Source: Bacteroidota bacterium
GTDB lineage: Bacteria > Bacteroidota > Ignavibacteria > Ignavibacteriales > Ignavibacteriaceae
Reading direction: 5' to 3'
NCBI GenBank assembly: GCA_021815405.1
Contig: JAKAGV010000001.1
Span: forward strand, 372,001-436,000
DNA: 64,000 nucleotides
The stretch's first letter is position 1. Each line of letters opens with the position of its first letter. The notes beneath the pieces are model-generated. The model saw nothing but the letters and a program-made list of their open reading frames with translations. It was not told where the DNA came from and did not search any database. Below are positions 1,585 to 17,713 of the stretch, piece after piece. Both the position numbers and the translations under genes were made by a program.

Positions 1585-1639
1585 ATTCTATTCTCCTTAA
1601 AAATTATTCTTTCTCTCTTTAATTGTAATTATTGTGCAC

Positions 1640-2446
1640 TCATAATCTATCCGAGCTGCACGGTGTTAAATTTTTTATTTCGTATTCCCAATCAGACGGA
1701 ATAACTCTGTAGAGCCACCCAGTGAAGTAAGGATCTTTTTCAATTATTTTATGATCTTCTAATAATTGATTATTGCGTTCAATAATTCTTCCGCTTACAG
1801 GGCTTAAGACGGTATGAACCATTTCGTCTTTCATCTTAATTTGTGCACATGAATTTCCCTGAACAATTTCTTCGTCGACTTTTTGCAATTCAATTTCATT
1901 TATTGCATCTATCGTTTTTAGAAATAAATCTGTAACGCCAATGATTGCCGAACCGGAGTTATCGAAATAAATCCAGCTTGAATATCCAAGCCGGAAATAA
2001 ATTGCAGGACAAGGTACATAAATTATAGTTTCGTCATTAGTATGATTTTTGGATTCCACTAATTTTTTCTGGATCTCCATATATTTCAAACCGCGGTAAA
2101 CCGAAGAAAGCAATTCGTCGGAAGTAAACGGTTTCGGAATAAAATCAATTGCACCATTGTATAATGATTTAACTGCATTCTCAACGGTTGAATAGCCTGT
2201 CGTCATTATGATCGGCGTTAACAATTTTCTCTTGCTTGCTTCATCAAGAAATTGGAAGCCGTCCATATCAGGAAGCATGATGTCACAGATTATCAGCTTG
2301 TAGCTGTTCTTGTCGAGTTTTGAAATAGCTTCAACGGCATCGAGTGAGGTATCGACCTTATATCCTTCGGCAGAACATATTTTATTTACTGCTTGAGTAA
2401 TAATTTGTTCGTCGTCTATTATCAATATGTCAAATTGCTTTTTCAT
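1640..2446 (-). CDS. Response regulator with a degenerate GcvH-like output domain
   Basis: 268 residues, soluble. Receiver domain at about 5-120 (DD11-12, phospho-acceptor D55 in CDIMLPDMDG, T83, K105) followed by a GcvH-like domain at about 145-262 (SSWIYFDNSGSAIIGVTD, the SPVSG turn, DPYFTGWLYRV). The lipoyl-lysine position, eight residues before the Pro of SPVSG, is Glu208. It lies 6 bp after the stop of the histidine kinase, so the two are surely translated together and form a two-component pair. The domain order is the same as in the next gene downstream, but without the membrane anchor. The output is expected to be protein-protein contact rather than DNA binding; this is inference. Confidence 0.88.
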   Translation of the reverse strand: MKKQFDILIIDDEQIITQAVNKICSAEGYKVDTSLDAVEAISKLDKNSYKLIICDIMLPDMDGFQFLDEASKRKLLTPIIMTTGYSTVENAVKSLYNGAIDFIPKPFTSDELLSSVYRGLKYMEIQKKLVESKNHTNDETIIYVPCPAIYFRLGYSSWIYFDNSGSAIIGVTDLFLKTIDAINEIELQKVDEEIVQGNSCAQIKMKDEMVHTVLSPVSGRIIERNNQLLEDHKIIEKDPYFTGWLYRVIPSDWEYEIKNLTPCSSDRL

Positions 2447-2452
2447 AATTTA

Positions 2453-4318
2453 TCATGTTTGCATCAAAGGCAAGCGGATTGTAAATACTGTTCCTTTGTC
2501 CGGTTCACTTTCAACATTGATCGTACCGTTGTGATTATCGATTATTCCCCAGATTACCGCAAGTCCCAGCCCCGTTCCCTTCTGTCCTTTTGTACTGAAG
2601 AATGGTTCAAAAATTTTTGATAAATCTTCTTTTGCAATTCCGCATCCGGTATCGGATATTTTTATTTCAATATACTCTCTCTGTCCGCCAACATCCACCG
2701 CATCCCATTTCTGCCAATCGCAGTATTTCCTGGTGCAGCCTTCAAAAATTCCTTGTGAAGGGACTTCAAAGTTATAAATCGGCGCTCCACACTTAGGGCA
2801 TTTCTTTCCTTCAGCTATTAAGGATTGACTGCATTGAGGACACATTATTTCAATATCTCTTTTTACATCCAGTTCAATTCCATATTGGTGTCTGCATTTC
2901 CCGTACACCGGATCTAAGTTAATAAATCCTTCGTTACCATTCGAGATTGCTTTTACTTTTATTGAAGGCATGCCATCAATTTTAATTTCATTATCCATTA
3001 AGTCGTGCCGCTTTGAGCAGACCGCTTTTTTAATATGAGTAATCCCGTAGGGCGAAAGATTTAGTTTTTGAGATGAAACAGTAATTGTGCCGCCTCTTTC
3101 GCCAATAGCATCATGAGCATTTACCAACAAATTGATAAATACCTGCTGTATCTGGTTAGAATCAACTGTTATGTTGGGCAGTTGTGCATCCAGTTTTTTA
3201 ATTAGTTTTATGTGGTTAAGAGCTAACTGATTTTCAACAACGCTTGATGCATGATTTATAATATCATTGATGTTTGCTTCGTTTTTCTTCGGAATAGATT
3301 GACGAGCAAAATCTAATAGGCTTTTTACAATTTCACGGCTGCGTTTTGTTTCTCGAACAATTACTTTTAAATCTTCCTGGAGCTCCGGATTATTCTGAGT
3401 TCTCTTTAACAGGAAACTGCTGTATGTAAGAACTCCAGTTAACGGATTATTTATTTCGTGAGCAACGCCGGCGGCAAGTCTTCCAAGCGAAGCCATTTTA
3501 TCGGATTGAAAAAGCTGCATGCGTGCTTCAGAAAGTTTTTTTGTCATATTGTTAAACGAACGTGCCAGCATTCCCATTTCATCGTTACGGCGATCTTTAA
3601 TTGTGTAATTAAGATTTCCAAGGCTAACCTGATCAGTTGCCTTTAATAATTCTTTTACAGGTTTATCAACCCATCTTCTAACAAAGAAACCAATAATAAA
3701 ACTTAATGCGAGTACTGCCGAAATCGCAAATATTACTATTTCAATTTCTCCTTTTTTTATCTGGTTGTCAACGTCATTAAGAGAAATTGTTACATCTAAA
3801 ACTCCGAGAACCGTTTGATTTTTTGAATGAGCATGGCAATCTGCTTCCCAGCATGAAGGCTCGTTGTAAATTGGACTGATAATGCCCATAACTCTAGAAG
3901 AGTCAGGATTTATTCGAAAAATTCTAGTTCTGTCTTTAATTGGAAGCCTTTCCAAAGGCTTATCGGCTGCGTGACATTTGTAGCAGCTTTCTGCCATTTT
4001 ATCGACCATCTTTCCTACATCTTCTTGATGAGAAGAATAAATAATTTCACCAACTTTATTAAGAACTCGAACATCTCTAATGCCCGGCTGCTCGCCGATT
4101 GTATTTATTATTTTATGAATCCTGTCGCGCTGATTGAGCAGCATATCGTAACGGGTGCTGTGTTTTACCGTTTCGCTTAGCTGGTTGGCACTTCTTTCAA
4201 CTTCAGCAAGTAAGCTGCTTGTGTGAGACTGAATATTAAAATAAGAAAAGATTCCTATCGTAATAAGTGCTGTTATTCCAACAGCTAATATTAACTTGAA
4301 ACCTATTTTCTTAAACAT
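2453..4318 (-). CDS. Heme-type periplasmic sensor histidine kinase with zinc-ribbon insertion
   Basis: 621 residues. Membrane segments at about 8-27 and 193-213 enclose a periplasmic domain carrying CYKCH (112-116) and CWEADCH (156-162), the first a standard c-type heme site and the second a Cx4CH variant, so a redox or gas-sensing heme is likely. A HAMP region (about 214-268) leads to HisKA (H287 in AHEINNP) and a HATPase domain (N400, G1 box DTGCG at 556, GTGLGL at 581). Between the N box and the G1 box sits an insertion of about 130 residues with CPQC (493-496), CPKC (507-510) and further Cys at 434, 475, 528 and 533, which looks like a zinc ribbon or Fe-S knuckle; this is unusual in the ATP-binding domain. 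Paralogue: the kinase at 12084. Partner: the receiver 6 bp downstream. Confidence 0.9.
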   Translation of the reverse strand: MFKKIGFKLILAVGITALITIGIFSYFNIQSHTSSLLAEVERSANQLSETVKHSTRYDMLLNQRDRIHKIINTIGEQPGIRDVRVLNKVGEIIYSSHQEDVGKMVDKMAESCYKCHAADKPLERLPIKDRTRIFRINPDSSRVMGIISPIYNEPSCWEADCHAHSKNQTVLGVLDVTISLNDVDNQIKKGEIEIVIFAISAVLALSFIIGFFVRRWVDKPVKELLKATDQVSLGNLNYTIKDRRNDEMGMLARSFNNMTKKLSEARMQLFQSDKMASLGRLAAGVAHEINNPLTGVLTYSSFLLKRTQNNPELQEDLKVIVRETKRSREIVKSLLDFARQSIPKKNEANINDIINHASSVVENQLALNHIKLIKKLDAQLPNITVDSNQIQQVFINLLVNAHDAIGERGGTITVSSQKLNLSPYGITHIKKAVCSKRHDLMDNEIKIDGMPSIKVKAISNGNEGFINLDPVYGKCRHQYGIELDVKRDIEIMCPQCSQSLIAEGKKCPKCGAPIYNFEVPSQGIFEGCTRKYCDWQKWDAVDVGGQREYIEIKISDTGCGIAKEDLSKIFEPFFSTKGQKGTGLGLAVIWGIIDNHNGTINVESEPDKGTVFTIRLPLMQT

Positions 4319-4398
4319 GCAATCGACTTTCTGAAAACAAAACCTTTATCTTTAATTTTCAACTGAAATCTATATTATTTATATAATTTATGTAACAG

Positions 4399-5562
4399 TT
4401 ATTTTTTCTTTTTTAATGAAATAGTAATTTCCTTCCCAGGCTTATTTTTAGGAAAACTTTTATCTTCATGGCAATTATCGCAAGCCGGTGAATTTGAAAA
4501 ATTCTTTTCTTTATGGCACTCAATGCAATCCAAATCTTTGTGGTTTTCATCGAGCTTTAATCCTGTTAAGCTGTGGTCAAATTTACCAGCAGCAAAATTT
4601 TTATGGCAGCTTTCACATTTGTTGTCAAGCTTGGCAAATTTGTCTGAATTGCCATGACACTTTGAACATGATAATTTTTCATGAAATCTATTCAAAGCCC
4701 AGCCAGTTCTTTCAGCATGATTAAATGGACCTTCCGGTTTATTTGAATGGCATACCCCACATCTATCTTCACTATGACAGGAGAAACAAGGCTTATGATG
4801 CTGATCGGCAGATTTATGAATTTTAACCGGCAAATTGTAAAGCTGCTGAGTTAAGGTAGGCTTTCCTTTATCATGACATTTTGAACAATTCTCCTGTTGA
4901 TGGCAGTTAATACATTTTATTCCAAAAAGATTTATATGCTCGTCATGATAGAATGTTACAAATTTTCCCTTTCGACTCAGAGTTTCATAAACAACTTTTT
5001 CAGGCGCTTTTAATTTGGGATGATCCTTTGATTTGATTTTTTTTACATCAATTTTTTGAGAGACTTTGCCGGCTTTTTTTAATTCATGGCATGAGATGCA
5101 GCTGTTTTCATGGCTCCATTCACGATGACAATTAATACATTGACGATGGTATGCAGCTTCCAAATCAGGCTTGCTGATATCTTCTCTTTTCCTTTCTTCT
5201 TGATGACAATTTTTGCACGGCTGAATTGGTCCGCTTGTATTATAATGATGACAGGTTACGCAGCCGCCGGACATCTCCGACATTTGTGCATGAGCTCTGT
5301 GAAAAAAAACTACCGGATCATATTTTTTCGATAATTCACCAAGCGTTACAATATTAACTGTCTTATCTGCAGACTGATAAACCGTAACCATTTGATTGCG
5401 GGGGCAAGCGACCAGGCATGGATCCTTCTTAGTCGGTACTTCACAAACGTGGCATGTTTTACAGTTTAACTTATTCGATAAGGAATGATTTTTAGGAAGT
5501 TTACTTTGACTAAAAATTACGATTGAATATATAACAACATTTAATAAAATAAAATTTTTCAT
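4399..5562 (-). CDS. Multiheme cytochrome c, 13 CxxCH motifs
   Basis: 387 residues with an N-terminal signal peptide (hydrophobic stretch about 4-18), so it is exported to the periplasm. I count 13 CxxCH motifs (CKTCH, CVTCH, CKNCH, CINCH, CISCH, CINCH, CSKCH, CFSCH, CGVCH, CSKCH, CESCH, CIECH, CDNCH) and many free His for bis-His ligation, plus an extra Cys-rich stretch (CEVPTKKDPCLVAC) just after the first site. There is no recognisable nitrite- or tetrathionate-reductase active site, so an electron-wire role is most likely. Its start overlaps the NrfD stop by 4 bp (ATGA), tying it to the HybA/HybB-like pair upstream; quinol electrons could pass through that membrane protein and the ferredoxin to this cytochrome, or the reverse. 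Confidence 0.9.
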   Translation of the reverse strand: MKNFILLNVVIYSIVIFSQSKLPKNHSLSNKLNCKTCHVCEVPTKKDPCLVACPRNQMVTVYQSADKTVNIVTLGELSKKYDPVVFFHRAHAQMSEMSGGCVTCHHYNTSGPIQPCKNCHQEERKREDISKPDLEAAYHRQCINCHREWSHENSCISCHELKKAGKVSQKIDVKKIKSKDHPKLKAPEKVVYETLSRKGKFVTFYHDEHINLFGIKCINCHQQENCSKCHDKGKPTLTQQLYNLPVKIHKSADQHHKPCFSCHSEDRCGVCHSNKPEGPFNHAERTGWALNRFHEKLSCSKCHGNSDKFAKLDNKCESCHKNFAAGKFDHSLTGLKLDENHKDLDCIECHKEKNFSNSPACDNCHEDKSFPKNKPGKEITISLKKKK

Positions 5563-6803
5563 TGTTCACTTCCTCTGATTGCATATTTTGTCCTTGGAGT
5601 ATAATGTCTATCGATAACACTTATGACAGGGAAGTTGAAAACAATAAGTCTGTATAATAAAACCAGTAATGCAATAAATCCGACAGTGACTGATATTTCT
5701 CCAAATGAAGGGAAGTATGAACTGAATGAATATGGCGGAGTATAAGCTGTAACAAAATTATTTATTCTATTTAATAAAACTCCAAAAATTACAAGGCATG
5801 ATGCGATGAACAGCCAAAGCGGCGATTTCAAAACAGCTTTAGATAAAAACATTCTTAGCGGGATAATTACTCCGAACAAAACTTCAATTGTAAACATTAC
5901 GCTTTGAGTATTAAAGCTTGTTAAATAAACGAAGGTCTCTCTTATAAACATGTCGCCTAACTTGAAAGCAAGATAAATTCCTAGGATAGGCGGAACAATT
6001 GAGCCCAGGCGAGAAAGTATTTCCATCTCAGGTTTCAATCCGAAGGAACGTGCAGCTATCATTGATTCGAAAATCACCATTGGAAAACCAACCGAAATTG
6101 CTGATAGTAAAAACAGTAATGGCAAAATAGGTGTTTGCCATAGCGGATGCATTTTAGGTCCGGCTATAACCATCAAAGTTCCGAGAGAAGATTGATGCAA
6201 TGTTGAAAGAACTACTCCGGCAATTATAAAAACGAACATTACTTTAGATAATCCTTTATCTAAAAGCATCAACAGTCTTTCTATAGGTTTATTCAAAAAA
6301 GAAAAGATTCCTTTTAGATTAACATGATTTATAAATCTTTCAGTAACAATGGGAAGAAATTCTATGTAGAGGACAGTCAGATAAATCATCACACAAATAC
6401 CGACCTCAAAAAGAGCTGATGATCCATTCCACATAATCATCGGGTGCCATATGTAATACCATCTTCCAATATCGATGGAAACGCTTAGTGCAACGAAAGT
6501 ATAACCGAGTAGTGCAGTTAATAGCGCTGGTCTTACAATATCATGATAATGAGACCTATGCATAACATGACCGAGAGCTGCAGTTGTAAATCCGCCAGCA
6601 GCAAGAGCTACTCCAGCAGCAACATCAACTCCAATCCAAATTCCCCAAGGATATTGATTATTCAAGTGTGTAACAGCACCAATGCCAAAAAATAATCGAC
6701 CTAACAAAAATGCAATTCCATTTAGTGCAATAAGCATTAAAACAAAAACTCCAGGAGTAAAATATTTTTTAGTGATTGGTGCGGGTTTCATATAAGATAC
6801 CAT
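5559..6803 (-). CDS. HybB/NrfD/PsrC-family quinone-binding membrane protein
   Basis: 414 residues, about ten hydrophobic membrane segments. Family signatures are PWGIWIGVDVAAGVALAAGGF near the N terminus, RPALLTALLGY, then GRWYYIWHPMIMWNGSSALFE, and STLHQSSLGTLMV, all typical of the HybB branch of the NrfD family, which exchanges electrons with the quinone pool and may translocate protons. The gene begins 3 bp after the upstream HybA-like ferredoxin and overlaps the downstream cytochrome, so the three form one complex. A Met four codons in (MKPAP) is an alternative start. A second NrfD (10073-11251) is encoded in the divergent arm. Confidence 0.92.
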   Translation of the reverse strand: MVSYMKPAPITKKYFTPGVFVLMLIALNGIAFLLGRLFFGIGAVTHLNNQYPWGIWIGVDVAAGVALAAGGFTTAALGHVMHRSHYHDIVRPALLTALLGYTFVALSVSIDIGRWYYIWHPMIMWNGSSALFEVGICVMIYLTVLYIEFLPIVTERFINHVNLKGIFSFLNKPIERLLMLLDKGLSKVMFVFIIAGVVLSTLHQSSLGTLMVIAGPKMHPLWQTPILPLLFLLSAISVGFPMVIFESMIAARSFGLKPEMEILSRLGSIVPPILGIYLAFKLGDMFIRETFVYLTSFNTQSVMFTIEVLFGVIIPLRMFLSKAVLKSPLWLFIASCLVIFGVLLNRINNFVTAYTPPYSFSSYFPSFGEISVTVGFIALLVLLYRLIVFNFPVISVIDRHYTPRTKYAIRGSEQ

Positions 6804-6806
6804 GAT

Positions 6807-7706
6807 TTACTCCTCTTCCGAATTTTTTCTGTTCTTAGTAATCCACATTATTCCTCCCAGCAAAGCATAGAGTGAAACCGGCGGTACAAAGTAAGCAAAT
6901 ATTCCGTGTTGGATTGCTTCTGATACACCAGGTGCAGGCTTGTCACCAAGTTTTGGAAATGCAACATTTCTTAGATCTTGATTGCCGATATACATCCATG
7001 AAGTCCCTCCAACTTCGTATTCGCCGTAGATATAGTCGAAATATTTATCTGGATTTCTTTTTATTCTTTCTCGTGCAATTTTGATTAAATCGTTTCTAGG
7101 TCCATAAGTCAATGCTTCTACCGGACATATTTCTACGCATGCGGGAAGCTTCCCAACTTTTGTGCGCTCAAAACAGAAATCGCATTTTTTAATTTCCGGA
7201 TTTATTGCTTTGTTGTATTCAAACGATGGAACCTGAAACGGACAGGCGACCATACAATATCTGCAGCCTATACATTTCTTAGTATCCCAAATTACTGATC
7301 CATTCTCCTGCTTTGAGAAGGCTCCTACGATACATGCTGATACACAAGCGGGATGATCGCAATGCATGCATTGTATTTTAACATCCGTAGGAAGTTGAGC
7401 ATTCTGATGATTCGCATATTCGTTCACCACTGTCAATGCATTTACATCAGGGCGGCGCATATTTTTAAAAACAGTTCTATCGCTATATTTTTCTAAAGAT
7501 TGGGTTTCTATTCCATGTGCAGTCTTGCAAGCCCATTCACAGCTTCTACAGCCGATACATGCTGTAGTATCAACTAGAACTCCCATTCTGTCTTCCGACA
7601 GAATATTTTTTGGTGCTGCCTTGGTTGAGTTAGAAGATAAACCTGCAATTGCAGAACCGACAATCGCTGTTGTCTTAAAGAATTCTCTTCGGCTTTGTTT
7701 TTCCAC
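6807..7706 (-). CDS. Tat-exported HybA-like ferredoxin subunit (four [4Fe-4S])
   Basis: 299 residues. A twin-arginine signal is visible (SRREFFK at 5-11 followed by a hydrophobic segment), so the folded protein is exported. Cys groups CIGCRSCEWAC, CMHCDHPACVSAC, CIGCRYCMVACP and CDFC...CVEICP supply ligands for four [4Fe-4S] clusters, as in HybA/NrfC/PsrB. A C-terminal hydrophobic segment (about 270-290, ending ITKNRKNSEEE) anchors it, as in HybA. First gene of the minus arm; NrfD follows 3 bp later. It would link the quinone site to the periplasmic 13-heme cytochrome. No hydrogenase or molybdopterin subunit is adjacent. Confidence 0.92.
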   Translation of the reverse strand: MEKQSRREFFKTTAIVGSAIAGLSSNSTKAAPKNILSEDRMGVLVDTTACIGCRSCEWACKTAHGIETQSLEKYSDRTVFKNMRRPDVNALTVVNEYANHQNAQLPTDVKIQCMHCDHPACVSACIVGAFSKQENGSVIWDTKKCIGCRYCMVACPFQVPSFEYNKAINPEIKKCDFCFERTKVGKLPACVEICPVEALTYGPRNDLIKIARERIKRNPDKYFDYIYGEYEVGGTSWMYIGNQDLRNVAFPKLGDKPAPGVSEAIQHGIFAYFVPPVSLYALLGGIMWITKNRKNSEEE

Positions 7707-8306: not shown

Positions 8307-8558
8307 ATGCTTACATTTTTGTTAGTATTAATTCTTGTGTTTGCAGTTGTCGATCTTTTTGTTCAGCTTGTGATTAATCCATTAGCTTCGAAAAAAAGAA
8401 GTGAACATGTGAAAAAAATTTCAACAAGTAATATTGAACCTATAATAAGTATGGTAGGTGCCACTATGTATGATGGCGGGAAATCAAAAAAAAGTGATGA
8501 ACCGGATAAATCTGAACAAAAAAATTTAACTGACGAAACATCAAGTACTGTTAAGTAA
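8307..8558 (+). CDS. Small single-span membrane protein with VGATMYDGG motif
   Basis: 83 residues: a hydrophobic segment at about 2-24, a basic stretch (KKRSEHVKK), then VGATMYDGG at 50-58 and a charged, low-complexity tail. I do not recognise a named family. The same motif recurs near the C terminus of the next protein (8606-9274) and, as VGPTMQDGG, in the protein at 11253-11972, so it is probably a functional peptide of this system rather than chance. Strong SD (AAGGAG) before the ATG. First gene of the plus arm, 47 bp before the next gene. Confidence 0.75.
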   Translation: MLTFLLVLILVFAVVDLFVQLVINPLASKKRSEHVKKISTSNIEPIISMVGATMYDGGKSKKSDEPDKSEQKNLTDETSSTVK

Positions 8559-8605
8559 AAGATTACAAAACAGTAAACTTACAATATCCCAACTAAGAGG
8601 AAATT

Positions 8606-9274
8606 ATGGTTGCATTATCGGTAGTACTTACTTTTTTATTTGTTATTTTGATTGATATGCTGGTTCTTAAATTTCAAGGAAAAACTCATCCTGCATTTGA
8701 AAATTCATTTGTTGAAGATACAGTTTCCATTTTTGATGATGCTAAAATTGTAATACCAAAAAATATGTTTTTATCAAAAAGTCATATCTGGTTAAAAAAG
8801 TTATCCAAAGGTTTATATCAAATAGGTATTGATAATTTTTTATGCAAGTCATTCACAAACATGTCGTTCAATAAATTTCCTGAACCAGGAAATAAATTAA
8901 AATTTGGTGATGCATTGTTTGAATATCGAGTAGGAAATAAAACATTAAAAATACTTTCTCCAGTTGATGGGATAGTATCTTCTATTAATAAAACCGAAAG
9001 CAGGGATAAAATAATAGATCCTTATTCACAGTGGCAGGTAATAATTCAAGCGGAAAGAATTGATGCTCAAAATAATTTTCTATCCGGCAAGAAAGCTGCC
9101 GTCTGGATTAAAGAAGAGTTTAAAAGATTGGAAGATTTTGTGTATGCTCATTCAGGAAACACAGAGTTAGTTGGGGCTACAATGTATGATGGCGGAAAAC
9201 CTGTAGAAAGTGTAGCCGAAAAAATAATAGAAAATTATTTAGAGGATTTTGAAAAAGAATTTCTCAAACTATAG
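8606..9274 (+). CDS. Membrane-anchored GcvH-like protein with VGATMYDGG motif
   Basis: 222 residues. An N-terminal membrane segment (about 3-21), then a domain at about 50-148 resembling H-protein (SHIWLKKLSKGLYQIGID, PGNKLKFGDALFEY, ILSPVDG, DPYSQWQVII). The residue eight before the Pro of SPVDG is Asn111, so the lipoylation site is lost, although a Lys is next to it. VGATMYDGG occurs at 189-197 in the C-terminal tail. SD AGAGGA lies just before the ATG. Its neighbours are the small motif protein upstream and a ferredoxin/NrfD pair downstream, so it is probably an accessory or docking subunit on the cytoplasmic face. Function inferred, not known. Confidence 0.8.
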   Translation: MVALSVVLTFLFVILIDMLVLKFQGKTHPAFENSFVEDTVSIFDDAKIVIPKNMFLSKSHIWLKKLSKGLYQIGIDNFLCKSFTNMSFNKFPEPGNKLKFGDALFEYRVGNKTLKILSPVDGIVSSINKTESRDKIIDPYSQWQVIIQAERIDAQNNFLSGKKAAVWIKEEFKRLEDFVYAHSGNTELVGATMYDGGKPVESVAEKIIENYLEDFEKEFLKL

Positions 9275-9285
9275 CTGGAGTAAAA

Positions 9286-10086
9286 ATGTTGAACGGAAAA
9301 GGGATTTTGTTCGATGTAACGCTTTGTATAGGCTGCGGAGCTTGTTACCAGGCGTGTAAAGAAGAAAATGATTTACCGAATACAAATAAAGAGTACTTAA
9401 AAGATCATTTATCGGAAAATACCTTAACAATAGTTGAGCAATATGGAGATAAATATGCACGTAAGCTTTGTATGCATTGTAATGAGCCATCTTGCGTTTC
9501 AGTGTGTCCGGTTGGTTCTTTTAAGAAAAATGAATTTGGTGCAGTAATTTATGATAAAAATAAATGCATCGGCTGCCGGTATTGTATGCAGGCATGTCCG
9601 CATAAAGTTCCTAGGTATGAGTGGGGAAAGACTCAGCCACGTGTTCGAAAATGTAATTTGTGCAGTAAAAGATTAAAGGAAGGAAAGCTTACTGCTTGTG
9701 CAGAAGCTTGCCCGACTGAAGCTACTTTATTTGGTGATATGGAAAAGTTGATTGAGGTTGCAAATAGCAGATTGAAAAATAATCCGACAAAATATTATCA
9801 GCATATTTATGGTCTTGAAGAAGCTGGCGGCGGTCATGTGCTAGTAATATCACCAATGCCGTTTGAGCAATTAGGATACACTGCAATGCTGCCGGATAAG
9901 CCGATGCCTGAACTTACGATGCGAGCTATGGAAAAGATTCCATCGGTAGTTGCGGCTGGAGGAATTTTTCTAACTACAATGTACTGGTTGACAAAAAGAA
10001 AAAATCAAATTGCACGAGAAGAAAAAAAACAATTATTTAAATCTGAAAATCGAAATAATGGAAATAAGTATCATGAAGAGTTATGA
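9286..10086 (+). CDS. Cytoplasmic HybA/NrfC-like four-cluster ferredoxin
   Basis: 266 residues, no Tat signal, so in contrast to the minus-arm homologue it should stay in the cytoplasm. Cys sets CIGCGACYQAC, CMHCNEPSCVSVC, CIGCRYCMQAC and CNLC...CAEAC give four [4Fe-4S] clusters. A C-terminal hydrophobic segment (about 225-240) precedes a basic tail, as in membrane-anchored HybA. Its 3' end overlaps the following NrfD by 14 bp. The pair would carry electrons between quinone and a cytoplasmic donor or acceptor; the partner enzyme is not encoded next to it. Confidence 0.9.
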   Translation: MLNGKGILFDVTLCIGCGACYQACKEENDLPNTNKEYLKDHLSENTLTIVEQYGDKYARKLCMHCNEPSCVSVCPVGSFKKNEFGAVIYDKNKCIGCRYCMQACPHKVPRYEWGKTQPRVRKCNLCSKRLKEGKLTACAEACPTEATLFGDMEKLIEVANSRLKNNPTKYYQHIYGLEEAGGGHVLVISPMPFEQLGYTAMLPDKPMPELTMRAMEKIPSVVAAGGIFLTTMYWLTKRKNQIAREEKKQLFKSENRNNGNKYHEEL

Positions 10087-11251
10087 CTTCTTAAAGCCAT
10101 CATTTTGGAAAATAATTTCTGCAATTATAATTATTGGAGGCTTATATTCAACTTATAATAGATTTGCCCATGGTCTTGGGGCGTCAACAAATCTTTATGA
10201 TACAGGTCCTTGGGGCTTATGGATTGGATTTGATTTTTTAGGTGTTGGGTTAGCCGCTGCAGGATTTACAATCGCAGCTACGGTTCACATTTTTAATATT
10301 CATAAATTTGAACCAATTGTTAGACCGGCAATTTTAACAGCATTTATTGGTTACTCACTAGTAGTGTGCCTTTTAATTGTTGATTTAGGACGTCCGGAAA
10401 ACTTTTGGCATCCGCTAATAATGTGGAATGTTCATTCTGTTATGTTTGAAATTACTTGGTGCATTATCTGTTACTCTACTGTACTCACTCTTGAATTTGC
10501 ACCAGTAGTGCTGGAAAAATATAACTTGAAAAAACCAATCAGAATTTTAAAGAAGTTTTCTATCGGAGTGGTTATAGCCGGAGTTATATTTTCAACTCTG
10601 CATCAATCTTCTTTTGGGTCACTTTATTTAATAGTGCCTGGGCGACTTCATCCATTGTGGTATTCTTCGCTGCTGCCGGTTCACTTTTTTATTTCTTGTA
10701 TCGGCGCCGGACTTTCGATGATAATTTTTGAATCTTTTCTAAATGCGCGAGCCTTCAATACAAGTATTAGAATGAATATACTTTCAGGTTTAGCTTTTGC
10801 AATCTTAATCGATTTAATTTTGGAATTTATTCTTAAGTTAACTGAATTTATTGCAGCAGGAAAATTGATTTATTTGACTATCCCTTCTACTGAAGCTTAT
10901 CTTTTTTATCTTGAGGTATTTATCGGAACATTACTTCCAGTTTATATATTGAGCAATAAAAAACTAAGAGAGGATAGAAAATGGCTTTTTATCTCTTCGG
11001 TCTTGGTAATATCAGGATTTATTTTAGACAGAATGAACGTAAGCATAACGGGTGTTGCTGCATCATCCGGTAAAAATTATTTCCCATCATTTGATGAAAT
11101 CTCTATTACTCTGATGCTGGTAGTGCTTGCAATACTTGCATTCAGGTTTGTGGTTAAAAATTTCCCGGTATTTACCGGCGAAAAAAGTCTTCAAATTATT
11201 GGCAGAGAAAGAAGTGCGAAGAATTCAAAACAATTAATAGTGAGTGAATAA
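10073..11251 (+). CDS. HybB/NrfD/PsrC-family quinone-binding membrane protein (second copy)
   Basis: About 392 residues from the ATG at 10073 (MKSYDF), chosen because upstream in-frame codons overlap the ferredoxin gene and give a charged extension not seen in the family. About ten membrane segments; signatures GPWGLWIGFDFLGVGLAAAGF, RPAILTAFIGYS, GRPENFWHPLIMWN, STLHQSSFGSLYL closely parallel the minus-arm copy at 5559-6803. It pairs with the ferredoxin it overlaps. Two NrfD proteins of the same subfamily, one with an exported and one with a cytoplasmic ferredoxin, suggest electron transfer across the membrane through the quinone pool. Confidence 0.9.
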   Translation: MKSYDFLKPSFWKIISAIIIIGGLYSTYNRFAHGLGASTNLYDTGPWGLWIGFDFLGVGLAAAGFTIAATVHIFNIHKFEPIVRPAILTAFIGYSLVVCLLIVDLGRPENFWHPLIMWNVHSVMFEITWCIICYSTVLTLEFAPVVLEKYNLKKPIRILKKFSIGVVIAGVIFSTLHQSSFGSLYLIVPGRLHPLWYSSLLPVHFFISCIGAGLSMIIFESFLNARAFNTSIRMNILSGLAFAILIDLILEFILKLTEFIAAGKLIYLTIPSTEAYLFYLEVFIGTLLPVYILSNKKLREDRKWLFISSVLVISGFILDRMNVSITGVAASSGKNYFPSFDEISITLMLVVLAILAFRFVVKNFPVFTGEKSLQIIGRERSAKNSKQLIVSE

Positions 11252-11252
11252 A

Positions 11253-11972
11253 ATGAGTAATGATAACTTCTATTCTGAAAATTCCTATGATATGCTTAAG
11301 TGCATATGGATGGCTTCGAATGTAGTTGAATATAAGCTTTGCGATAAGAAGTTTGATTGCGAAAACTGCCAGTTCGACAAAGTTATGAGAAACTATACCG
11401 GCGATGTTGAATCTCAAATAGCGATTGGACAGGATGTAGCAAGTATTATAAGAAGAAAGCTGGAATCAATTAAGTACGATGAGAAATTTATTTACCTGAA
11501 AAACAGCTTTGTCGTAAAAGAAGTTTTACCCAATACATATTATCTCGGCGTAAATCCGATATTCATAAGCTTCTTAGATAACGTAGCGATAATTATGGAA
11601 TTCAGTCAGGGTAGAAATATATTAAAGGGACAAACGGTAGTTCAATTCTTTGGCGAATGGGGAACTTTCAGCTTAACTGCGCCGATGAACTTTTTAATTT
11701 ATGATAAGGTAAACAACCCAGCAGATGATCTTGCAAAATCAAAATGGATTGCGATAATTGGAGCCATCCCGCAGGAGGTATCAAACTCCAGCATAAATAA
11801 AAGCGGCTGGCAGAAACTTTATAAAGAATCCATTAAATCAATTGAAGATGTGAAATCTGCTCACCCAAAGGTTGGACCAACAATGCAGGACGGAGGTAAT
11901 CAAATAAAATATCTACATCAATTAATCGGTAAGGAGAAATTTATTAGTATACTTAACTCATTAAGCATCTAA
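11253..11972 (+). CDS. Cys-motif GcvH-like protein with VGPTMQDGG motif
   Basis: 239 residues from the ATG at 11253 (an in-frame GTG lies 9 bp upstream), overlapping nothing and 1 bp after the NrfD stop. N-terminal Cys set C17, C30, C36, C39 in a CIW...KLCDKKFDCENCQFD arrangement could bind a metal or cluster. A divergent GcvH-like domain follows (about 78-175; FVVKEVLPNTYYLGV, GRNILKGQTVVQF, LTAP turn, KSKWIAII); the lipoyl position is Trp136, so it is not a lipoyl carrier. VGPTMQDGG lies at 207-215. I know of no assigned function. It closes the membrane-module part of the plus arm and precedes the kinase by about 110 bp. Confidence 0.75.
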   Translation: MSNDNFYSENSYDMLKCIWMASNVVEYKLCDKKFDCENCQFDKVMRNYTGDVESQIAIGQDVASIIRRKLESIKYDEKFIYLKNSFVVKEVLPNTYYLGVNPIFISFLDNVAIIMEFSQGRNILKGQTVVQFFGEWGTFSLTAPMNFLIYDKVNNPADDLAKSKWIAIIGAIPQEVSNSSINKSGWQKLYKESIKSIEDVKSAHPKVGPTMQDGGNQIKYLHQLIGKEKFISILNSLSI

Positions 11973-12083
11973 TGTATTTCATACTTTTACCTTAAGCAAA
12001 TTATCCCTCATCCACTTCACCCCAACTAAAAATTGGAAGTCGAAAAAGTTATTCCTAATTTTACGGCAAAGGAACAGGGTTTT

Positions 12084-13676
12084 ATGAATACTAAATTAAT
12101 AAATAAATTAAGCGTAAGGCTTATAATTTCCATCTCACTAATACTTTTTAGTATCCTTGCAGCTTATACATATTTCCTGGTTAGGAACCTTGACGGATAT
12201 TTAACCGAATCACGTATGGAGAGCGCTTATAACATAAGTGATCTGATAAAGAAATCGACGCGGTACAGCATGCTTCTTAACCGTCGTGAAGACGTTCATG
12301 AGATTATTAAAACCCTTGGTACAGAAATAGGCGTATACAACATTAGAATTTACAATAAACAGGGAACAATAATTTTTTCAACTGACTCTACAGAAATAAT
12401 GAAGAAAGTTGATATGTCTGCCGAAGCATGCATTGTTTGCCATAATAGTACCGTCCCACTGAGCAAATTGACTAACCCAAATAAAATTCGCATTTATAAA
12501 AATACTGAAAACAAGAGAGTTCTTGGATTAATTAATCCTATCCAAAATGAACCGGACTGTTATAATGCCGCTTGCCATGCACATTCACCTAATGTTCAAG
12601 TATTAGGTGTCCTTGATGTTGTGGTTGGTCTGGATAAGCTTGATGCCATTATAGCAAAGAACACTAAGGAAATCATTCTTAATGCTCTGCTGATTACAGT
12701 GGTTATCTCGTTCTTCTGTGGTTTGTTTATTACTGTGCTTGTAAATCGTCCGATCAAAAAATTTACTAAAGGTATAGAAGAGATTGGCAAAGGGAATTTG
12801 AATTATAAAATTAATTTGGATACCAAAAATGAACTCGGTCAGCTTGCTCACCAGTTTAACGATATGTCCACAAAACTTGATGACGCTTATAAAGAAATAA
12901 AGAATTGGTCAGAGACTCTTAATGATAAGGTTAACGAGAAGACTGAAGAGCTTAAAAACATTTACAATCAAGTAAATCAAATTGAGAAGCTAGCATCGCT
13001 CGGAAAATTATCGGCTACGGTTGCTCACGAACTTAATAACCCGCTTGAAGGTATTTTAACATACAGCAAATTGATAACAAGAAAGCTGCAGGCAATGCAG
13101 AAGGATTCTGAGTACTCAAAAATGATTGAATACCTCGAATTAATATCCAGTGAATCTTCTCGATGCGGGAAAATTGTTAAGGATCTTCTATTATTTTCTC
13201 ATGAGGAAAAAGATGAATTCTCAAAAGAAAATCTTATAAAGATTATTGACAAAAGCATTACAGTCATTCAGCATCATTTAGAAATTTATCGGGTAACAAT
13301 TGAGAAAGAATATCCGAATGAAGTGAAGGAAATAAATTGCAGCGGACAAAAAATTCAGCAAGCTTTAATGTCACTCTTAATTAATGCGATAGAAGCGATG
13401 CCTCAGGGCGGAAAGATAATAGTAAAGCTTACCTGGGAAAATCAGAATGCAGTAATTAGAGTAATTGATGAAGGTACCGGAATTTCCAGAAAGGATTTAC
13501 CTCATATATTCGAGCCTTTTTATTCAACCAAAGAAGCTTCGAAGGGAACAGGTCTTGGTCTTGCAGTTGTTTATGGCATTGTAACTAACCACAACGGTTC
13601 AATTGAAGTCGAAAAAACTTCGGTTAAAGGAACTACTTTTAAATTGACTTTACCACAAAATGAAAACATTTCTTAA
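12084..13676 (+). CDS. Heme-type periplasmic sensor histidine kinase
   Basis: About 530 residues from the ATG at 12084, preceded by a GGAACAGGG ribosome site; an upstream TTG adds only polar residues before the membrane segment. Membrane segments at about 10-33 and 197-220 flank a periplasmic domain with CIVCH (116-120) and CYNAACH (159-165), the same CxxCH plus Cx4CH pair as the kinase at 2453. HAMP, a coiled coil (about 265-300), HisKA (H315 in AHELNNP) and HATPase (DEGTG, GTGLGL) follow. It lacks the zinc-ribbon insertion of its paralogue. The NtrC-type regulator begins 9 bp downstream and is the natural partner. Likely senses a periplasmic redox ligand, NO, CO or O2; which one is not determinable. 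Confidence 0.9.
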   Translation: MNTKLINKLSVRLIISISLILFSILAAYTYFLVRNLDGYLTESRMESAYNISDLIKKSTRYSMLLNRREDVHEIIKTLGTEIGVYNIRIYNKQGTIIFSTDSTEIMKKVDMSAEACIVCHNSTVPLSKLTNPNKIRIYKNTENKRVLGLINPIQNEPDCYNAACHAHSPNVQVLGVLDVVVGLDKLDAIIAKNTKEIILNALLITVVISFFCGLFITVLVNRPIKKFTKGIEEIGKGNLNYKINLDTKNELGQLAHQFNDMSTKLDDAYKEIKNWSETLNDKVNEKTEELKNIYNQVNQIEKLASLGKLSATVAHELNNPLEGILTYSKLITRKLQAMQKDSEYSKMIEYLELISSESSRCGKIVKDLLLFSHEEKDEFSKENLIKIIDKSITVIQHHLEIYRVTIEKEYPNEVKEINCSGQKIQQALMSLLINAIEAMPQGGKIIVKLTWENQNAVIRVIDEGTGISRKDLPHIFEPFYSTKEASKGTGLGLAVVYGIVTNHNGSIEVEKTSVKGTTFKLTLPQNENIS

Positions 13677-13685
13677 AAGATTAAA

Positions 13686-15035
13686 ATGGATAAACAAGAA
13701 AAAATATTAATAGTTGACGATGAAAAAATCGTCAGAGAGTCTCTATTACATTGGTTTGAAGAAGAAGGCTATGAAGTAGATACGGCGGAGGATGGTGAAA
13801 CTGCTCTCAAAAAATATGAATCAGTAAAATTCGATCTTCTGCTTGTTGACATGAAAATGCCTGGTATGAGTGGCATCGAACTGTTAAACAAAATTAAAGC
13901 GATTGATAAGGAAGCGGTAATTATTCTTATTACTGCATTCGCATCGGTTCCAACAGCTATTGCAGCACTTAAAAACGGTGCCTACGATTATGTTACCAAG
14001 CCGGTCGATCCTGATGAGCTTGCTCATCTTGTAAAAAAAGCTCTTGAACAGAGAGCCTTGAAAATTGAAAATATCCATTTGAAAGAAAACATTGATGAGA
14101 TAATCCGACCGAATAACCTAATCGGTGAAAGCTATCAGATGAAAAAAATCTACGATCTAATTCAGACTGTTGCATCGACAGATACTACTGTTATGATTCG
14201 CGGCGAAAGCGGAACCGGCAAGGAGCTTGTAGCAAAAGCTATTCACATAAACAGCAAAAGAAAATACTTCCCGATTATTCCAGTTAACTGTGGTGCTTTA
14301 GCGGAGACTATTTTAGAGAGTGAACTTTTCGGTCATGAAAAAGGCGCATTTACAGGTGCCCAATTTCGCCGTAAAGGAAAGTTTGAATTAGCTGATGGCG
14401 GAACTATCTTTTTAGATGAGATCGGCTCAATCTCAATCAAAATGCAGATTGAACTTTTGAGAGTTATAGAAACTAAACAATTCAGTCGCGTTGGAGGAAA
14501 TGAATTAATTAAAAGCGATTTTAGAGTCATCATTGCTACAAACGAACCGCTGGAAGAGCTTGTTAAAGCCGGAAAGTTCAGGGAAGATTTATATTACAGG
14601 CTTAACGTGTTTACAATTGTAATACCGCCGTTGAGGGAAAGAAAAGAAGACATCCCGCTGCTTGTAAATTTCTTTATCAACAAATTTTCAACTGTTATGA
14701 ATAAACCTGTAAAAGGCGTCTCGAAGGAAGCGATGGACTTTTTGATAAATTACGACTGGCATGGAAACGTTCGTGAATTGGAGAACGCAATTGAACGAGC
14801 GATGGTGGTTGGCAAAACCGATTCTATTCTACCGGAAGATCTGCCATTCCATGTTTCTTCAAATAATTTATATTTCGATGACGGATGCAAGAGCCTTGCG
14901 GCAATGGAGAAGAAGCATATCAATAAAATTTTAAACGAAAATAATTGGAACATTTCCCGCAGCGCTCAGGTTTTGGAAATTGACAGGGTAACGCTTTATA
15001 ATAAAATCAATAAATATAATCTTAAAAAAGATTAA
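13686..15035 (+). CDS. NtrC-family sigma54-dependent response regulator
   Basis: 449 residues: receiver (DD11-12, D55, K105), AAA+ domain (Walker A GESGTGKE 173-180, GAFTGA 220-225, Walker B GTIFLDE), and a Fis-type HTH at the C terminus (WNISRSAQVLEIDRVTLYNK). All elements needed to open sigma54 promoters are present. Encoded 9 bp after its kinase. A consensus sigma54 promoter lies downstream at 15875-15890, before the GcvH-like/NtrC-like pair, and is the obvious target. A close paralogue at 16364-17713 has the same layout but no GAFTGA. Confidence 0.95.
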   Translation: MDKQEKILIVDDEKIVRESLLHWFEEEGYEVDTAEDGETALKKYESVKFDLLLVDMKMPGMSGIELLNKIKAIDKEAVIILITAFASVPTAIAALKNGAYDYVTKPVDPDELAHLVKKALEQRALKIENIHLKENIDEIIRPNNLIGESYQMKKIYDLIQTVASTDTTVMIRGESGTGKELVAKAIHINSKRKYFPIIPVNCGALAETILESELFGHEKGAFTGAQFRRKGKFELADGGTIFLDEIGSISIKMQIELLRVIETKQFSRVGGNELIKSDFRVIIATNEPLEELVKAGKFREDLYYRLNVFTIVIPPLRERKEDIPLLVNFFINKFSTVMNKPVKGVSKEAMDFLINYDWHGNVRELENAIERAMVVGKTDSILPEDLPFHVSSNNLYFDDGCKSLAAMEKKHINKILNENNWNISRSAQVLEIDRVTLYNKINKYNLKKD

Positions 15036-15038
15036 TTG

Positions 15039-15578
15039 ATGGATATTTATATTGCGCCGATTAAATTTTCCAACACGCTGCTTCTAAAAAATCTGATAAA
15101 TGAGCTATCAAAAAGATTTAGTTCTCAACTCAAAATTCTTGAGCTAAAATTTGAGCTTGATAATTTTTTTTCCAAGGAAAGGGGACAATATTTTTCCACC
15201 CAGATTATTGCCGAAGCCATGAATCAAACAAGCAGCATCAACGGGAAAATAATTATGCTGACAGAGGTAGATATTTTTGTTCCAGTACTGACTTTCATTT
15301 TTGGCGAGGCACAGCTTAACGGAAAACATTCCATAGTTTCCATTTGCAGGCTCCATGAAGAATTTTATTCAGGCGAATCGAATGATGATTTGCTTTTACA
15401 AAGGACGATAAAAGAAATCCTTCATGAGCTTGGGCATAATTTTGGACTTCGTCATTGCACTGACTGGAACTGCGTTATGCATTCATCTCCCGGTATTGAA
15501 GAAGTTGATATTAAGGGTGAACTCTATTGCAACAGTTGCGCTGTTCATGTTGAAGATTATAAATATTTCAGAGCATAA
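15039..15578 (+). CDS. Archaemetzincin-type zinc metalloprotease
   Basis: 179 residues from the ATG at 15039, three bases after the NtrC stop (a TTG at 15036 is also in frame), so translationally coupled. The active-site signature HELGHNFGLRHC (H129, E130, H133, H139) followed by CTDWNC, V-M and a CNSC pair (C164, C167) matches the archaemetzincin pattern HExxHxxGx3Cx4CxM...CxxC, with 16 rather than 17 residues before the last CxxC. The second Zn site made of the Cys is thus intact. No signal peptide, so it acts in the cytoplasm. Its substrate is unknown; its place in a two-component operon suggests proteolysis of a component of this system, which is inference. Confidence 0.85.
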   Translation: MDIYIAPIKFSNTLLLKNLINELSKRFSSQLKILELKFELDNFFSKERGQYFSTQIIAEAMNQTSSINGKIIMLTEVDIFVPVLTFIFGEAQLNGKHSIVSICRLHEEFYSGESNDDLLLQRTIKEILHELGHNFGLRHCTDWNCVMHSSPGIEEVDIKGELYCNSCAVHVEDYKYFRA

Positions 15579-15933: not shown

Positions 15934-16362
15934 ATGTCTGGGAGTTCATTAAATATCGAGAAGAATTTTTCATCCGAAATCTACTATTCAAAAGAGTATA
16001 CCTCAGTTCAGAAAAATGATTATGGTTTGATTAAGATTGTGATTACGGATTATTTTAATAAAAGATACGGAGAAGTTTTTGCTTCCAATTTTGCAAGCAC
16101 TGGTTCTGGGTTAAAAGCTGGCGATAAAATCTTTCAATTAAAAGTTAATAAAAATATAATTGATATTTTATCACCGGTAAACGGCGTTATTAAGTTTGTG
16201 AATCCAAAAATCACGAAGGAAAAAAAATCAAATAACCTTGGTGATAACTGGATTATTCATCTAGCCGATTACGATTTACTTAAAGATAAAACTAGTCTTC
16301 TCAATTACACAGATTATTTAGTAACAATTAATAATTCTTTTAATAAATATCAAAAGTATTAA
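15934..16362 (+). CDS. Small GcvH-like protein that retains the lipoyl-lysine position
   Basis: 142 residues, soluble. Resembles H-protein through GLIKIVITDYFNKRYGEVF, GSGLKAGDKIFQLKV, ILSPVNGVI and NWIIHL. Unlike the other four GcvH-like domains in the locus, the residue eight before the Pro of SPVNG is Lys73, the place where H-protein carries lipoate. The rest of the H-protein lysine environment (ESVKAAS) is not kept, so lipoylation is possible but not certain. It is the first gene behind the sigma54 promoter and ends one base before the GAFTGA-less regulator. It could be the only modified member and a partner of the apo-domains; inference. Confidence 0.78.
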   Translation: MSGSSLNIEKNFSSEIYYSKEYTSVQKNDYGLIKIVITDYFNKRYGEVFASNFASTGSGLKAGDKIFQLKVNKNIIDILSPVNGVIKFVNPKITKEKKSNNLGDNWIIHLADYDLLKDKTSLLNYTDYLVTINNSFNKYQKY

Positions 16363-16363
16363 T

Positions 16364-17713
16364 ATGGAACGAAGAGAGAGAATTTTAGTCGTCGATGACG
16401 AAAAAATTATCCGGGAGTCTCTATTTAGCTGGTTCGAGAACGAAGGATACAAAGTAGAAACTGCACCAGATGGTGAAACCGGATTAGAGAAGTTTCAAAA
16501 TAAAAAGTTTGATATTCTCTTAGTCGATTTAAAACTGCCTGGCATTAACGGTCTGCAGGTATTGAAGGAAGTAAAAGAAATTTCAAAGGATACAATTGTT
16601 ATTATGATTACTGCATTTGCATCCGTATCGACGGCTATCGCTGCATTGAAGGAAGGCGCATATGATTATGTAACCAAACCGGTTGATCCCGACGAACTCA
16701 CCCTTCTTGTCGAGAAGGCAATAGGTCAGAGAAGGCTTCAAATTGAAAACAAAAATTTAAAGGAGAATATTGCAAACATTTCCAAACCTGAGTTGATAGT
16801 TGGAAATAATATCCTTATGAAAAAAGTTTATGAAATGATAAATACCATTTCAGAGACGGAAGCATCGACCTTGATAATTGGTGAAAGCGGGACAGGCAAA
16901 GAGCTGATTGCAAAGGTAATTCATAATAACAGTATCAGAAAATATTTCCCTTTTATATCGGTTAAATGCGGTTCATTAACTGAATCAATGCTTGAACAGG
17001 AGCTATTTGGAGAAGAACCCGATGCTGAGCGTGGAATTCATTTAAAGAAGAAAGGGAAAATTGAACTTGCTGAGGGCGGAACATTATACCTCGATGAGGT
17101 AAATTCGATTTCTACAAAAATGCAGGTTGAAATATTAAAAGTGCTCGAGACAAATCAATTCACAAGAATTGGAGGAAGAGAAAATATTAAAACAAATTTC
17201 AGGCTGATTACTGCTGCAAATACAAATCTTGAAAAGCTGATTATCGAGGGTAAATTTAGAGAAGACTTATATTATAAATTTAATGTCTTTTCAATTGCTG
17301 TTCCTCCTCTTCGTGAAAGGAGAGAGGATATTCTTCCACTTTCAAATGCTTTCATTAAAAAGTTTTCAAACCGGCTGAACAAACCAGCGAAAGTGATTTC
17401 AGTTGAAGCGGCGGAATTTTTAGTTAATTATGAATGGCCTGGTAATGTGCGAGAACTGGAAAACGCAATCGAACGTGCAGTAGTAGTAGGGAAATTTGAT
17501 GCAATAAAAGTTGAAGATTTACCAATGTGTATTGCTTCAACTCATTTTGAAGTTGATGACGGGAAGATGAGTCTATCAGCAATCGAAAAAAAACATATAT
17601 TTAAAGTTCTTAACGATAATAAATGGAATATTTCAAAGAGTGCTCAGATACTTGAAATAGATAGAGTAACATTGTACAATAAAATTAAAAGATACAATCT
17701 CCGTCAGATATGA
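16364..17713 (+). CDS. NtrC-like response regulator lacking the GAFTGA loop
   Basis: 449 residues, collinear with the regulator at 13686: receiver (D55, K105), AAA+ (Walker A GESGTGKE 173-180, Walker B GTLYLDE) and Fis-type HTH. Where the paralogue has EKGAFTGAQF, this protein reads EPDAERGIHL (about 218-227), so the loop that contacts sigma54 is gone while the ATP site is kept. Family members without GAFTGA, such as TyrR- and HupR-type proteins, do not activate sigma54 in the usual way. It has the same DNA-reading helix (EIDRVTLYNK) as its paralogue, so it may compete for the same sites as a repressor or form mixed hexamers. Induced from the sigma54 promoter upstream it would give negative feedback; inference. 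Confidence 0.92.
   Translation: MERRERILVVDDEKIIRESLFSWFENEGYKVETAPDGETGLEKFQNKKFDILLVDLKLPGINGLQVLKEVKEISKDTIVIMITAFASVSTAIAALKEGAYDYVTKPVDPDELTLLVEKAIGQRRLQIENKNLKENIANISKPELIVGNNILMKKVYEMINTISETEASTLIIGESGTGKELIAKVIHNNSIRKYFPFISVKCGSLTESMLEQELFGEEPDAERGIHLKKKGKIELAEGGTLYLDEVNSISTKMQVEILKVLETNQFTRIGGRENIKTNFRLITAANTNLEKLIIEGKFREDLYYKFNVFSIAVPPLRERREDILPLSNAFIKKFSNRLNKPAKVISVEAAEFLVNYEWPGNVRELENAIERAVVVGKFDAIKVEDLPMCIASTHFEVDDGKMSLSAIEKKHIFKVLNDNKWNISKSAQILEIDRVTLYNKIKRYNLRQI

Follow-up and report, generated by a model that had tools for sequence, protein, structure and literature searches.

A short DGG motif shared by GcvH-like and single-helix membrane proteins of an NrfD-type operon that also encodes an archaemetzincin

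The window analyzed here, a stretch of 64,000 nucleotides from a Bacteroidota bacterium of the class Ignavibacteria (assembly GCA_021815405.1, contig JAKAGV010000001.1, positions 372,001 to 436,000 of the forward strand), holds on its plus strand an operon (8307-15578) in which two subunits resembling those of Hmc complexes are encoded together with a mini-membrane protein, two GcvH-like proteins, a histidine kinase, a sigma-54-type response regulator, and an archaemetzincin (Amz). Three proteins of this operon carry the peptide VGATMYDGG or VGPTMQDGG, and from the sequence comparisons described below these peptides appear to be copies of a conserved short linear motif with the consensus [VLA]Gx[T][ML]xDGG, of which the DGG core is nearly invariant. 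The genes of the operon are the following.

8307..8558, plus strand: SMP, an 83-residue mini-protein with a single transmembrane (TM) helix and the motif at residues 50-58 (from sequence)
8606..9274, plus strand: GcvHm, a membrane-anchored GcvH-like protein of 222 residues with a DGG tail (Pfam GCV_H, Foldseek)
9286..10086, plus strand: HmcB-like 4Fe-4S subunit with no recognizable Tat motif (best NCBIfam model HmcB; simple Tat pattern)
10058..11251, plus strand: HmcC/NrfD-like membrane subunit (PF03916, 85.5 bits)
11244..11972, plus strand: GcvHc, a Cys-motif GcvH-like protein of 242 residues with a DGG tail (GcvH fold by Foldseek)
12033..13676, plus strand: histidine kinase whose sensor part has a CxxCH motif (sequence and domain scan)
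13686..15035, plus strand: response regulator, which from its sequence we take to be of the sigma-54-activator (NtrC) type (sequence; conserved neighbor of kinase and protease)
15036..15578, plus strand: archaemetzincin (peptidase M54) with intact catalytic motif (PF07998, 90.0 bits against a cut-off of 24.4)

SMP matched no Pfam or NCBIfam family above cut-off, and the start of the HmcC/NrfD-like gene at 10058 was chosen inside an open reading frame (ORF) opening at TTG 10010. As the initial annotation had pointed out, the motif is present in frame at three sites of the plus strand: VGATMYDGG at residues 50-58 of the 83-residue protein (DNA 8454-8480) and at residues 189-197 of the 222-residue protein (DNA 9170-9196), and VGPTMQDGG at residues 210-218 of the 242-residue protein translated from GTG 11244 (DNA 11871-11897). 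The numbering 207-215 given earlier for this third copy is valid solely with the ATG start at 11253, three codons downstream.

When the whole 4.97-Mb genome was searched on both strands with a degenerate DNA pattern, VGxTMxDGG matched three times, always in this operon, and the reversed pattern used as a control gave no match; the looser GxT(M/L/V)xDGG returned the same three sites and no others. Three copies within one 3.5-kb stretch are far beyond chance, even though the two GcvH-like carriers do not count as independent cases. The position of matches relative to NrfD and GcvH genes, which the initial annotation had advised to note, was examined with the looser pattern: in 146 genomes of the phylum it gave 41 matches, of which 19 fall in such clusters, within their GcvH-like or mini-membrane proteins, and 22 elsewhere. 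The latter correspond to ~0.15 matches per genome, so that the motif, which might have proved common in unrelated proteins, is rare outside such clusters. Part of these 22 matches is a recurrent mid-protein GRTVYDGG, presumably typical of S41 peptidases.

Motif carriers in related genomes

With HmcC as a motif-independent anchor, we retrieved the best 80 loci in named genomes (loci and genomes are cited below by L and G labels); they span Ignavibacteria/Bacteroidota, Acidobacteriota, KSB1, Planctomycetota, NC10/Methylomirabilota, and others. Among 74 GcvHm proteins from several phyla, which were not selected by motif, D195, G196, and G197 are conserved at 99, 97, and 99%, which places them 8th, 17th, and 15th among 213 columns. 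DGG lies within the last 80 residues of 70 of the 74, with a median of 28 residues following the D (range, 25 to 48), and a W/F-containing helix downstream of it is also conserved. DGG is likewise present in 26 of the 27 nonfragment GcvHc ORFs of the HmcC-anchored set, one of which comes from a duplicate contig; L126 lacks it, as do the GcvHc of L281 and L304, found later. In alignment A3 (17 GcvHc rows, leaving out L126 without DGG, the fragment L108, the duplicate L097, and loci L024-L032), D, G, and G are three of the five invariant columns. In G434, a relative of the same genus, the corresponding three genes encode VGATMYDGG, AGATMFDGG, and VGITMHDGG. Conservation in orthologues, on which the initial annotation had made its proposal depend, is thus found across several phyla. 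In a Candidatus Abyssobacteria locus (L107:6798-9130), three GcvH-like genes stand in tandem, the third with DGA for DGG.

The description of the carriers as three otherwise different proteins holds for their sequences and fails for their folds, since the 222- and 242-residue proteins are both predicted to have a GcvH fold; SMP is a distinct, third kind of carrier. GcvHm scores over the Pfam GCV_H cut-off (PF01597; 37.9 bits against 22.2) and below that of the NCBIfam gcvH equivalog (36.9 bits against 115.85), while GcvHc matched no Pfam family at E<=1 and did not match NCBIfam gcvH. Foldseek searches with AlphaFold 2 models returned GcvH structures as best matches for both (E 3.3e-08 for GcvHm and 3.1e-06 for GcvHc). 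The two models have a common layout of barrel, long helix, motif, and C-terminal helix, and in both the motif comes past the long helix, ~28 residues from the end. In the GcvHm model, the first half of the motif ends a short helix (186-193) and the rest lies in a loop (194-202), the mean predicted local distance difference test score (pLDDT) being 79 at residues 181-190, 63 at 191-200, and 94 at 211-220; in the GcvHc model, residues 212-216 fall below 50. The models therefore place the motif in a low-confidence stretch between well-predicted helices of the GcvH-like tails, in line with its earlier assignment to tails outside recognizable domains.

The GcvH-like carriers share with GcvH (PF01597) the barrel-sandwich fold, and they differ from it by the extra helix, the DGG linker, the C-terminal helix, the membrane anchor of GcvHm, the encoding of their genes with NrfD-type complexes, and the residue at the lipoyl-lysine position. 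This position, located from its spacing to SPxxG in an alignment containing no true GcvH, is K in 4 of the 69 GcvHm scored (74 in the set) and mostly G, N, or D, with N in the GcvHm of the window. The GcvH-like carriers are apparently nonlipoylated.

Relatives also carry Qrc-type clusters, most of which open with a mini-protein bearing LG[ILV]TMADGG and contain DGG-tailed GcvH-like proteins. L034, the single Qrc-type cluster scanned, scores over the NCBIfam cut-offs for QrcA (231.8 against 180 bits) and QrcD (589.5 against 570 bits), with QrcB (325.7 against 440 bits) and QrcC (368.5 against 400 bits) as best matches below theirs. Compared with the Qrc menaquinone reductase (QrcABCD), the clusters of the relatives add two GcvH-like proteins, the DGG mini-protein, and the module of histidine kinase, archaemetzincin, and response regulator. 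At L266 (G268:C23:91283-92110), a Qrc-type GcvH-like gene is broken by two in-frame TGA codons and adjoins a fragmented HmcC-like gene; the mini-protein and the protease of this locus look intact.

A motif-based search, which finds solely mini-proteins keeping T[ML]xD, yielded 26 single-TM mini-proteins from both cluster types, 25 of them with DGG; a 27th match, in L156, was discarded as a chance match. Profiles of the part before the motif added the mini-protein of L264 (LGITMADGG), bringing the recognizable mini-proteins that keep DGG to 26 of 27. A 60-residue mini-protein-like ORF at L168:4794-4976, with a membrane part like that of Qrc-type mini-proteins, ends before any motif, and no Amz was found in the L168 genome. 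The profile search also matched a 64-residue ORF without the motif at L149 (=L204), a locus with Amz; this ORF is probably not a mini-protein. Lysine and arginine are more numerous after the helix than before it in all 26 mini-proteins scored and in 66 of the 74 GcvHm. Because the residues after the helix are the more basic ones, the motif is probably cytoplasmic, on the same side as the cytosolic protease.

The archaemetzincin and its company

The archaemetzincin of the window reads HELGHNFGLRHC...CVM...CNSC, so that HEXXHXXGXXHC X4 C X M ... CXXC is complete, the last spacer being of 16 rather than 17 residues. Among 60 Amz sequences, the catalytic HExxHxxxxxH is visible in 59, and the remaining one is cut by a contig end. 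The protein resembles the M54 archaemetzincins (AmzA, AMZ-tk, human AMZ1/2, and Myxococcus CarG) by its PF07998 score, well over cut-off, and by HExxHxxGxxHC....C.M with C..C, and it differs from them by its place within a kinase/regulator operon. According to PMC3427221, Myxococcus CarG belongs to a transcription regulator and lacks proteolytic activity, and the natural substrates of archaemetzincins are unknown; proteolytic activity is reported for an archaeal archaemetzincin in PMC4681839. Unlike CarG, the window Amz keeps the catalytic Glu, and a dead CarG-like protease is ruled out by the intact catalytic motif.

In related genomes, Amz usually adjoins a kinase and a regulator, except for the distant homologues of L197 and L189. 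After 21 of the 80 HmcC-anchored loci had been dropped for short flanks, the 59 retained comprised 37 with DGG and Amz, 3 with DGG and no local Amz, 3 with Amz and no DGG, and 16 with neither (Fisher p 7e-9 for the association, related loci not being independent). DGG stands without a local Amz at L120, L128, and L129; the genomes of the first two have Amz elsewhere, and none was found in the L129 genome. Conversely, Amz stands without DGG at L105 (which has DAG), L169 (where the gene is cut), and L119 (where no GcvH-like protein was seen). Twelve of the 16 loci with neither carry receiver-GcvH proteins; in the window, a cluster of this type and one of the DGG type adjoin.

Among Qrc-type clusters, 29 were looked at (L034, L036, L037, and L241-L266; L101, L199-L201, and L203 stand outside this tally), and of the 22 whose retrieved stretch includes both kinase and regulator, 21 have Amz. 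The remaining one, L037, has a mini-protein with LGVTMSDGR and a GcvH-like protein with VGIIFADGG, and its genome has Amz elsewhere. Across 294 genomes of the same class, 126 have Amz and 136 match the Qrc-type GcvH-like profile. Thirty of these genomes have a GcvH-like match and no Amz found: at E<=1e-30, 24 show only frames of 381 to 402 residues, which is the receiver-GcvH size, and of the other six, G229, G356, and G375 are of the receiver-GcvH type and G199, G237, and G386 have DGG tails. We also examined 17 Amz loci from genomes without a GcvH-like profile match; complex or GcvH-like genes lie beside the module in G331, G311, G269, and G284, and a separate contig bears a DGG cluster in G385 and G234. 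Ordinary-length GcvH is all that was seen in G402 and in several fragmented assemblies. Stand-alone modules of kinase, archaemetzincin, and regulator, away from GcvH-like genes, occur at L193, L194, L198, and L280, the last beside 14- and 6-haem cytochromes.

Possible roles of the DGG linker

The reading that we favor, with confidence falling somewhat short of even, is that a shared partner recognizes DGG in the cytoplasm; this partner would most likely be the archaemetzincin, which would probably clip the linker. Its first part, a conserved motif with a common partner, we consider highly probable because the conservation concerns a site that is predicted to be poorly ordered. The identification of that partner with the archaemetzincin comes from gene company, has real exceptions, and is put forward tentatively, with our doubts the heavier. 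The initial annotation had suggested such a common partner, or else a site of processing or modification, perhaps for the archaemetzincin of the operon, and this suggestion stands in part: the Amz gene accompanies most motif clusters, but the module also exists without DGG proteins in G297 and G366.

We propose a model in which one partner recognizes the DGG linker on several proteins at the cytoplasmic side of the NrfD-type complex, which would account for the presence of the motif in several proteins of one cluster. The linker would be offered by the C-terminal tails of GcvH-like proteins and, just past the helix, by single-TM mini-proteins, in Hmc-like or Qrc-type clusters. The archaemetzincin, encoded with the histidine kinase and the sigma-54 regulator, would bind it and probably clip it, thereby removing the last 25 to 30 residues. 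Such clipping, which the kinase would control, would detach the C-terminal helix and alter the placement of the GcvH-like proteins on the complex, and the receiver-GcvH proteins without DGG may represent a phosphorylation-controlled alternative. In its most general form, the DGG linker would be the natural substrate site of bacterial archaemetzincins, and the kinase/regulator/Amz module would control NrfD-type complexes by tail clipping, with receiver-GcvH as the phosphorylation version; taken to that extent, we regard the proposal as rather unlikely.

In favor of the model we count, besides conservation at a poorly ordered site, the second type of carrier, the predicted side of the membrane, the co-occurrence of DGG with a catalytically intact Amz, the DGR of the Amz-less L037 cluster, the L168 ORF that stops short of the motif, the receiver-GcvH size seen in 24 of the 30 genomes with a GcvH-like match and no Amz, and the 12 receiver-GcvH loci with neither DGG nor Amz. 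Several observations weigh against a role of the archaemetzincin as the partner. Some carriers beside Amz have DAG (L105, L144) or DGA (L107), in many phyla the T-M/L part is poorly kept (AVAADGG, LLQDGG), and the count of mini-proteins is bound to the pattern by which they were searched. On the HmcC tree, four supported independent pairs, 1 to 3 of them concordant and none discordant, gave a nonsignificant median p of 0.5; this test kept 71 of 89 rows, retaining L117, L147, and L165 despite short flanks, leaving out L030 (same contig as L097), and dropping L169, with its cut gene, from the DGG label. No Amz was found in four genomes with DGG, namely, G160, G386, G199, and G237, of which G199 is 81% complete and G386 and G237 are in 410 and 540 contigs. 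Conversely, the near-complete genomes G297 (6 contigs) and G366 (20 contigs) have the module, ordinary-length GcvH only, and no DGG protein, the module of G297 adjoining 14- and 6-haem cytochromes; G415 has the module and a 217-residue GcvH-like protein without DGG; and L164 and L167, both receiver-GcvH clusters, come from genomes with Amz elsewhere. The module can therefore exist without the motif, and Amz has another role at least in G297, G366, and G415. Amz tracks its kinase and regulator genes more closely than it tracks the motif, and a strict one-to-one link between Amz and DGG is ruled out by G297, G366, and the nonsignificant tree test. In part, moreover, the peptide is a tail passed down within one GcvH-like family, and descent rather than a shared partner may account for its presence in both GcvHm and GcvHc.

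The linker could instead serve for docking to the respiratory complex, with DGG and the next helix attaching the GcvH-like and mini-proteins to the cytoplasmic face of the NrfD-type subunit or to the 4Fe-4S subunit and no proteolysis taking place. The motif genes adjoin HmcB-HmcC or Qrc-type genes in most clusters examined, the C-terminal helix past DGG is itself conserved (W, F), and mini-proteins head both cluster types; however, the same HmcB-HmcC pair has no DGG where it is accompanied by receiver-GcvH fusions (12 loci), HmcB being there also without a Tat motif, and docking leaves the Amz company of DGG clusters unexplained. We see it as a real though doubtful possibility. Shared ancestry only, with DGG as a structural turn of the GcvH-like tail and the mini-protein as a shortened GcvHm (TM helix and tail) having no partner, would fit the likeness of GcvHm and GcvHc in fold and motif position. 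The membrane helices of SMP and GcvHm are weakly alike: a profile of the GcvHm N-terminal TM region ranks the mini-proteins of L024 and of the window first and second with weak E values of 0.026 and 0.13 (real proteins scored whole, against a control of 1000 shuffled 40-residue N termini), which weakly supports the mini-protein as a possible trimmed GcvHm. Qrc-type mini-proteins do not stand out in this test, yet they keep the motif nearly exactly, and the motif, although of low predicted order, is among the most conserved sites. We therefore consider ancestry as the sole explanation improbable.

Processing could also, as in ubiquitin-like precursors, expose a C-terminal Gly-Gly that serves conjugation or thiocarboxylate formation. 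This would suit a DGG typically 28 residues from the C terminus and a metalloprotease gene alongside; given the DAG and DGA variants and a GcvH barrel in place of a beta-grasp fold, we find it very improbable. As for a chance resemblance of short peptides, the shortness of the motif and the 22 loose-pattern matches outside such clusters would speak for it, but three copies in one operon with none elsewhere in the genome, together with the conservation in orthologues, rule it out, and the likelihood that we leave to it is negligible.

Under the favored reading, the motif is a concrete candidate for an archaemetzincin target, for which nature provides contrasts in the DGR, DAG, and DGA variants, in the clusters without the protease, and in the modules without the motif. 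The carriers also suggest that Hmc-like and Qrc-type complexes have accessory or regulatory parts in GcvH-like proteins that apparently lack lipoylation.

Relation to known complexes and the divergent cluster

With Hmc/HybAB-type modules, the operon shares a 4Fe-4S and an NrfD-type membrane subunit, for which HmcB and HmcC are the best NCBIfam models. Both subunits score below the equivalog cut-offs (262.2 against 420 bits for HmcB, 297.7 against 550 bits for HmcC), the HmcB-like one has no Tat motif, no multihaem HmcA is found among the genes of the motif operon, and GcvH-like accessory proteins, kinase, regulator, and archaemetzincin are added. A term search of the main text only counted 0 occurrences each of "glycine" and "GcvH" for the NrfD review PMC8076601 and 0 of "glycine" for the Qrc paper PMC6303296. 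The combination of motif and genes was not found in the literature on NrfD with GcvH or archaemetzincin, where most subscription papers are not searchable. The parts are each of a known kind; what is new, as far as the literature was searched, is their combination and the motif.

Downstream of the archaemetzincin (15934-17713, plus strand) come a 142-residue GcvH-like protein without DGG tail and a second sigma-54-type regulator. A second Hmc-like set occupies the divergent cluster at 427-7706. Its HmcB is of the Tat type, its multihaem cytochrome scores 59 of 400 bits for HmcA, and the cluster further encodes a kinase and two receiver-GcvH fusions, neither of them with DGG.

427-1584, minus strand: RRH2, receiver-GcvH fusion with no DGG tail (sequence, domain scan)
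1640-2446, minus strand: RRH1, receiver-GcvH fusion with no DGG tail (sequence, domain scan)

By the simple pattern, the only HmcB proteins with a Tat motif are that of L142 and, in the window, L025, and L033, the divergent b-type HmcB; a match in L153 looks spurious. Topology of the FeS subunit as the reason for a missing DGG was rejected, both DGG and receiver-GcvH clusters having HmcB without a Tat motif. The two fusions (427-2446, minus strand) are response regulators with a GcvH-like output domain in place of a DNA-binding one, and one of them has an N-terminal hydrophobic helix. In the kinase of the divergent cluster (2453-4318, minus strand), the ATPase domain is apparently interrupted by a Cys-rich, zinc-ribbon-like stretch (CPQC...CPKCG...C).

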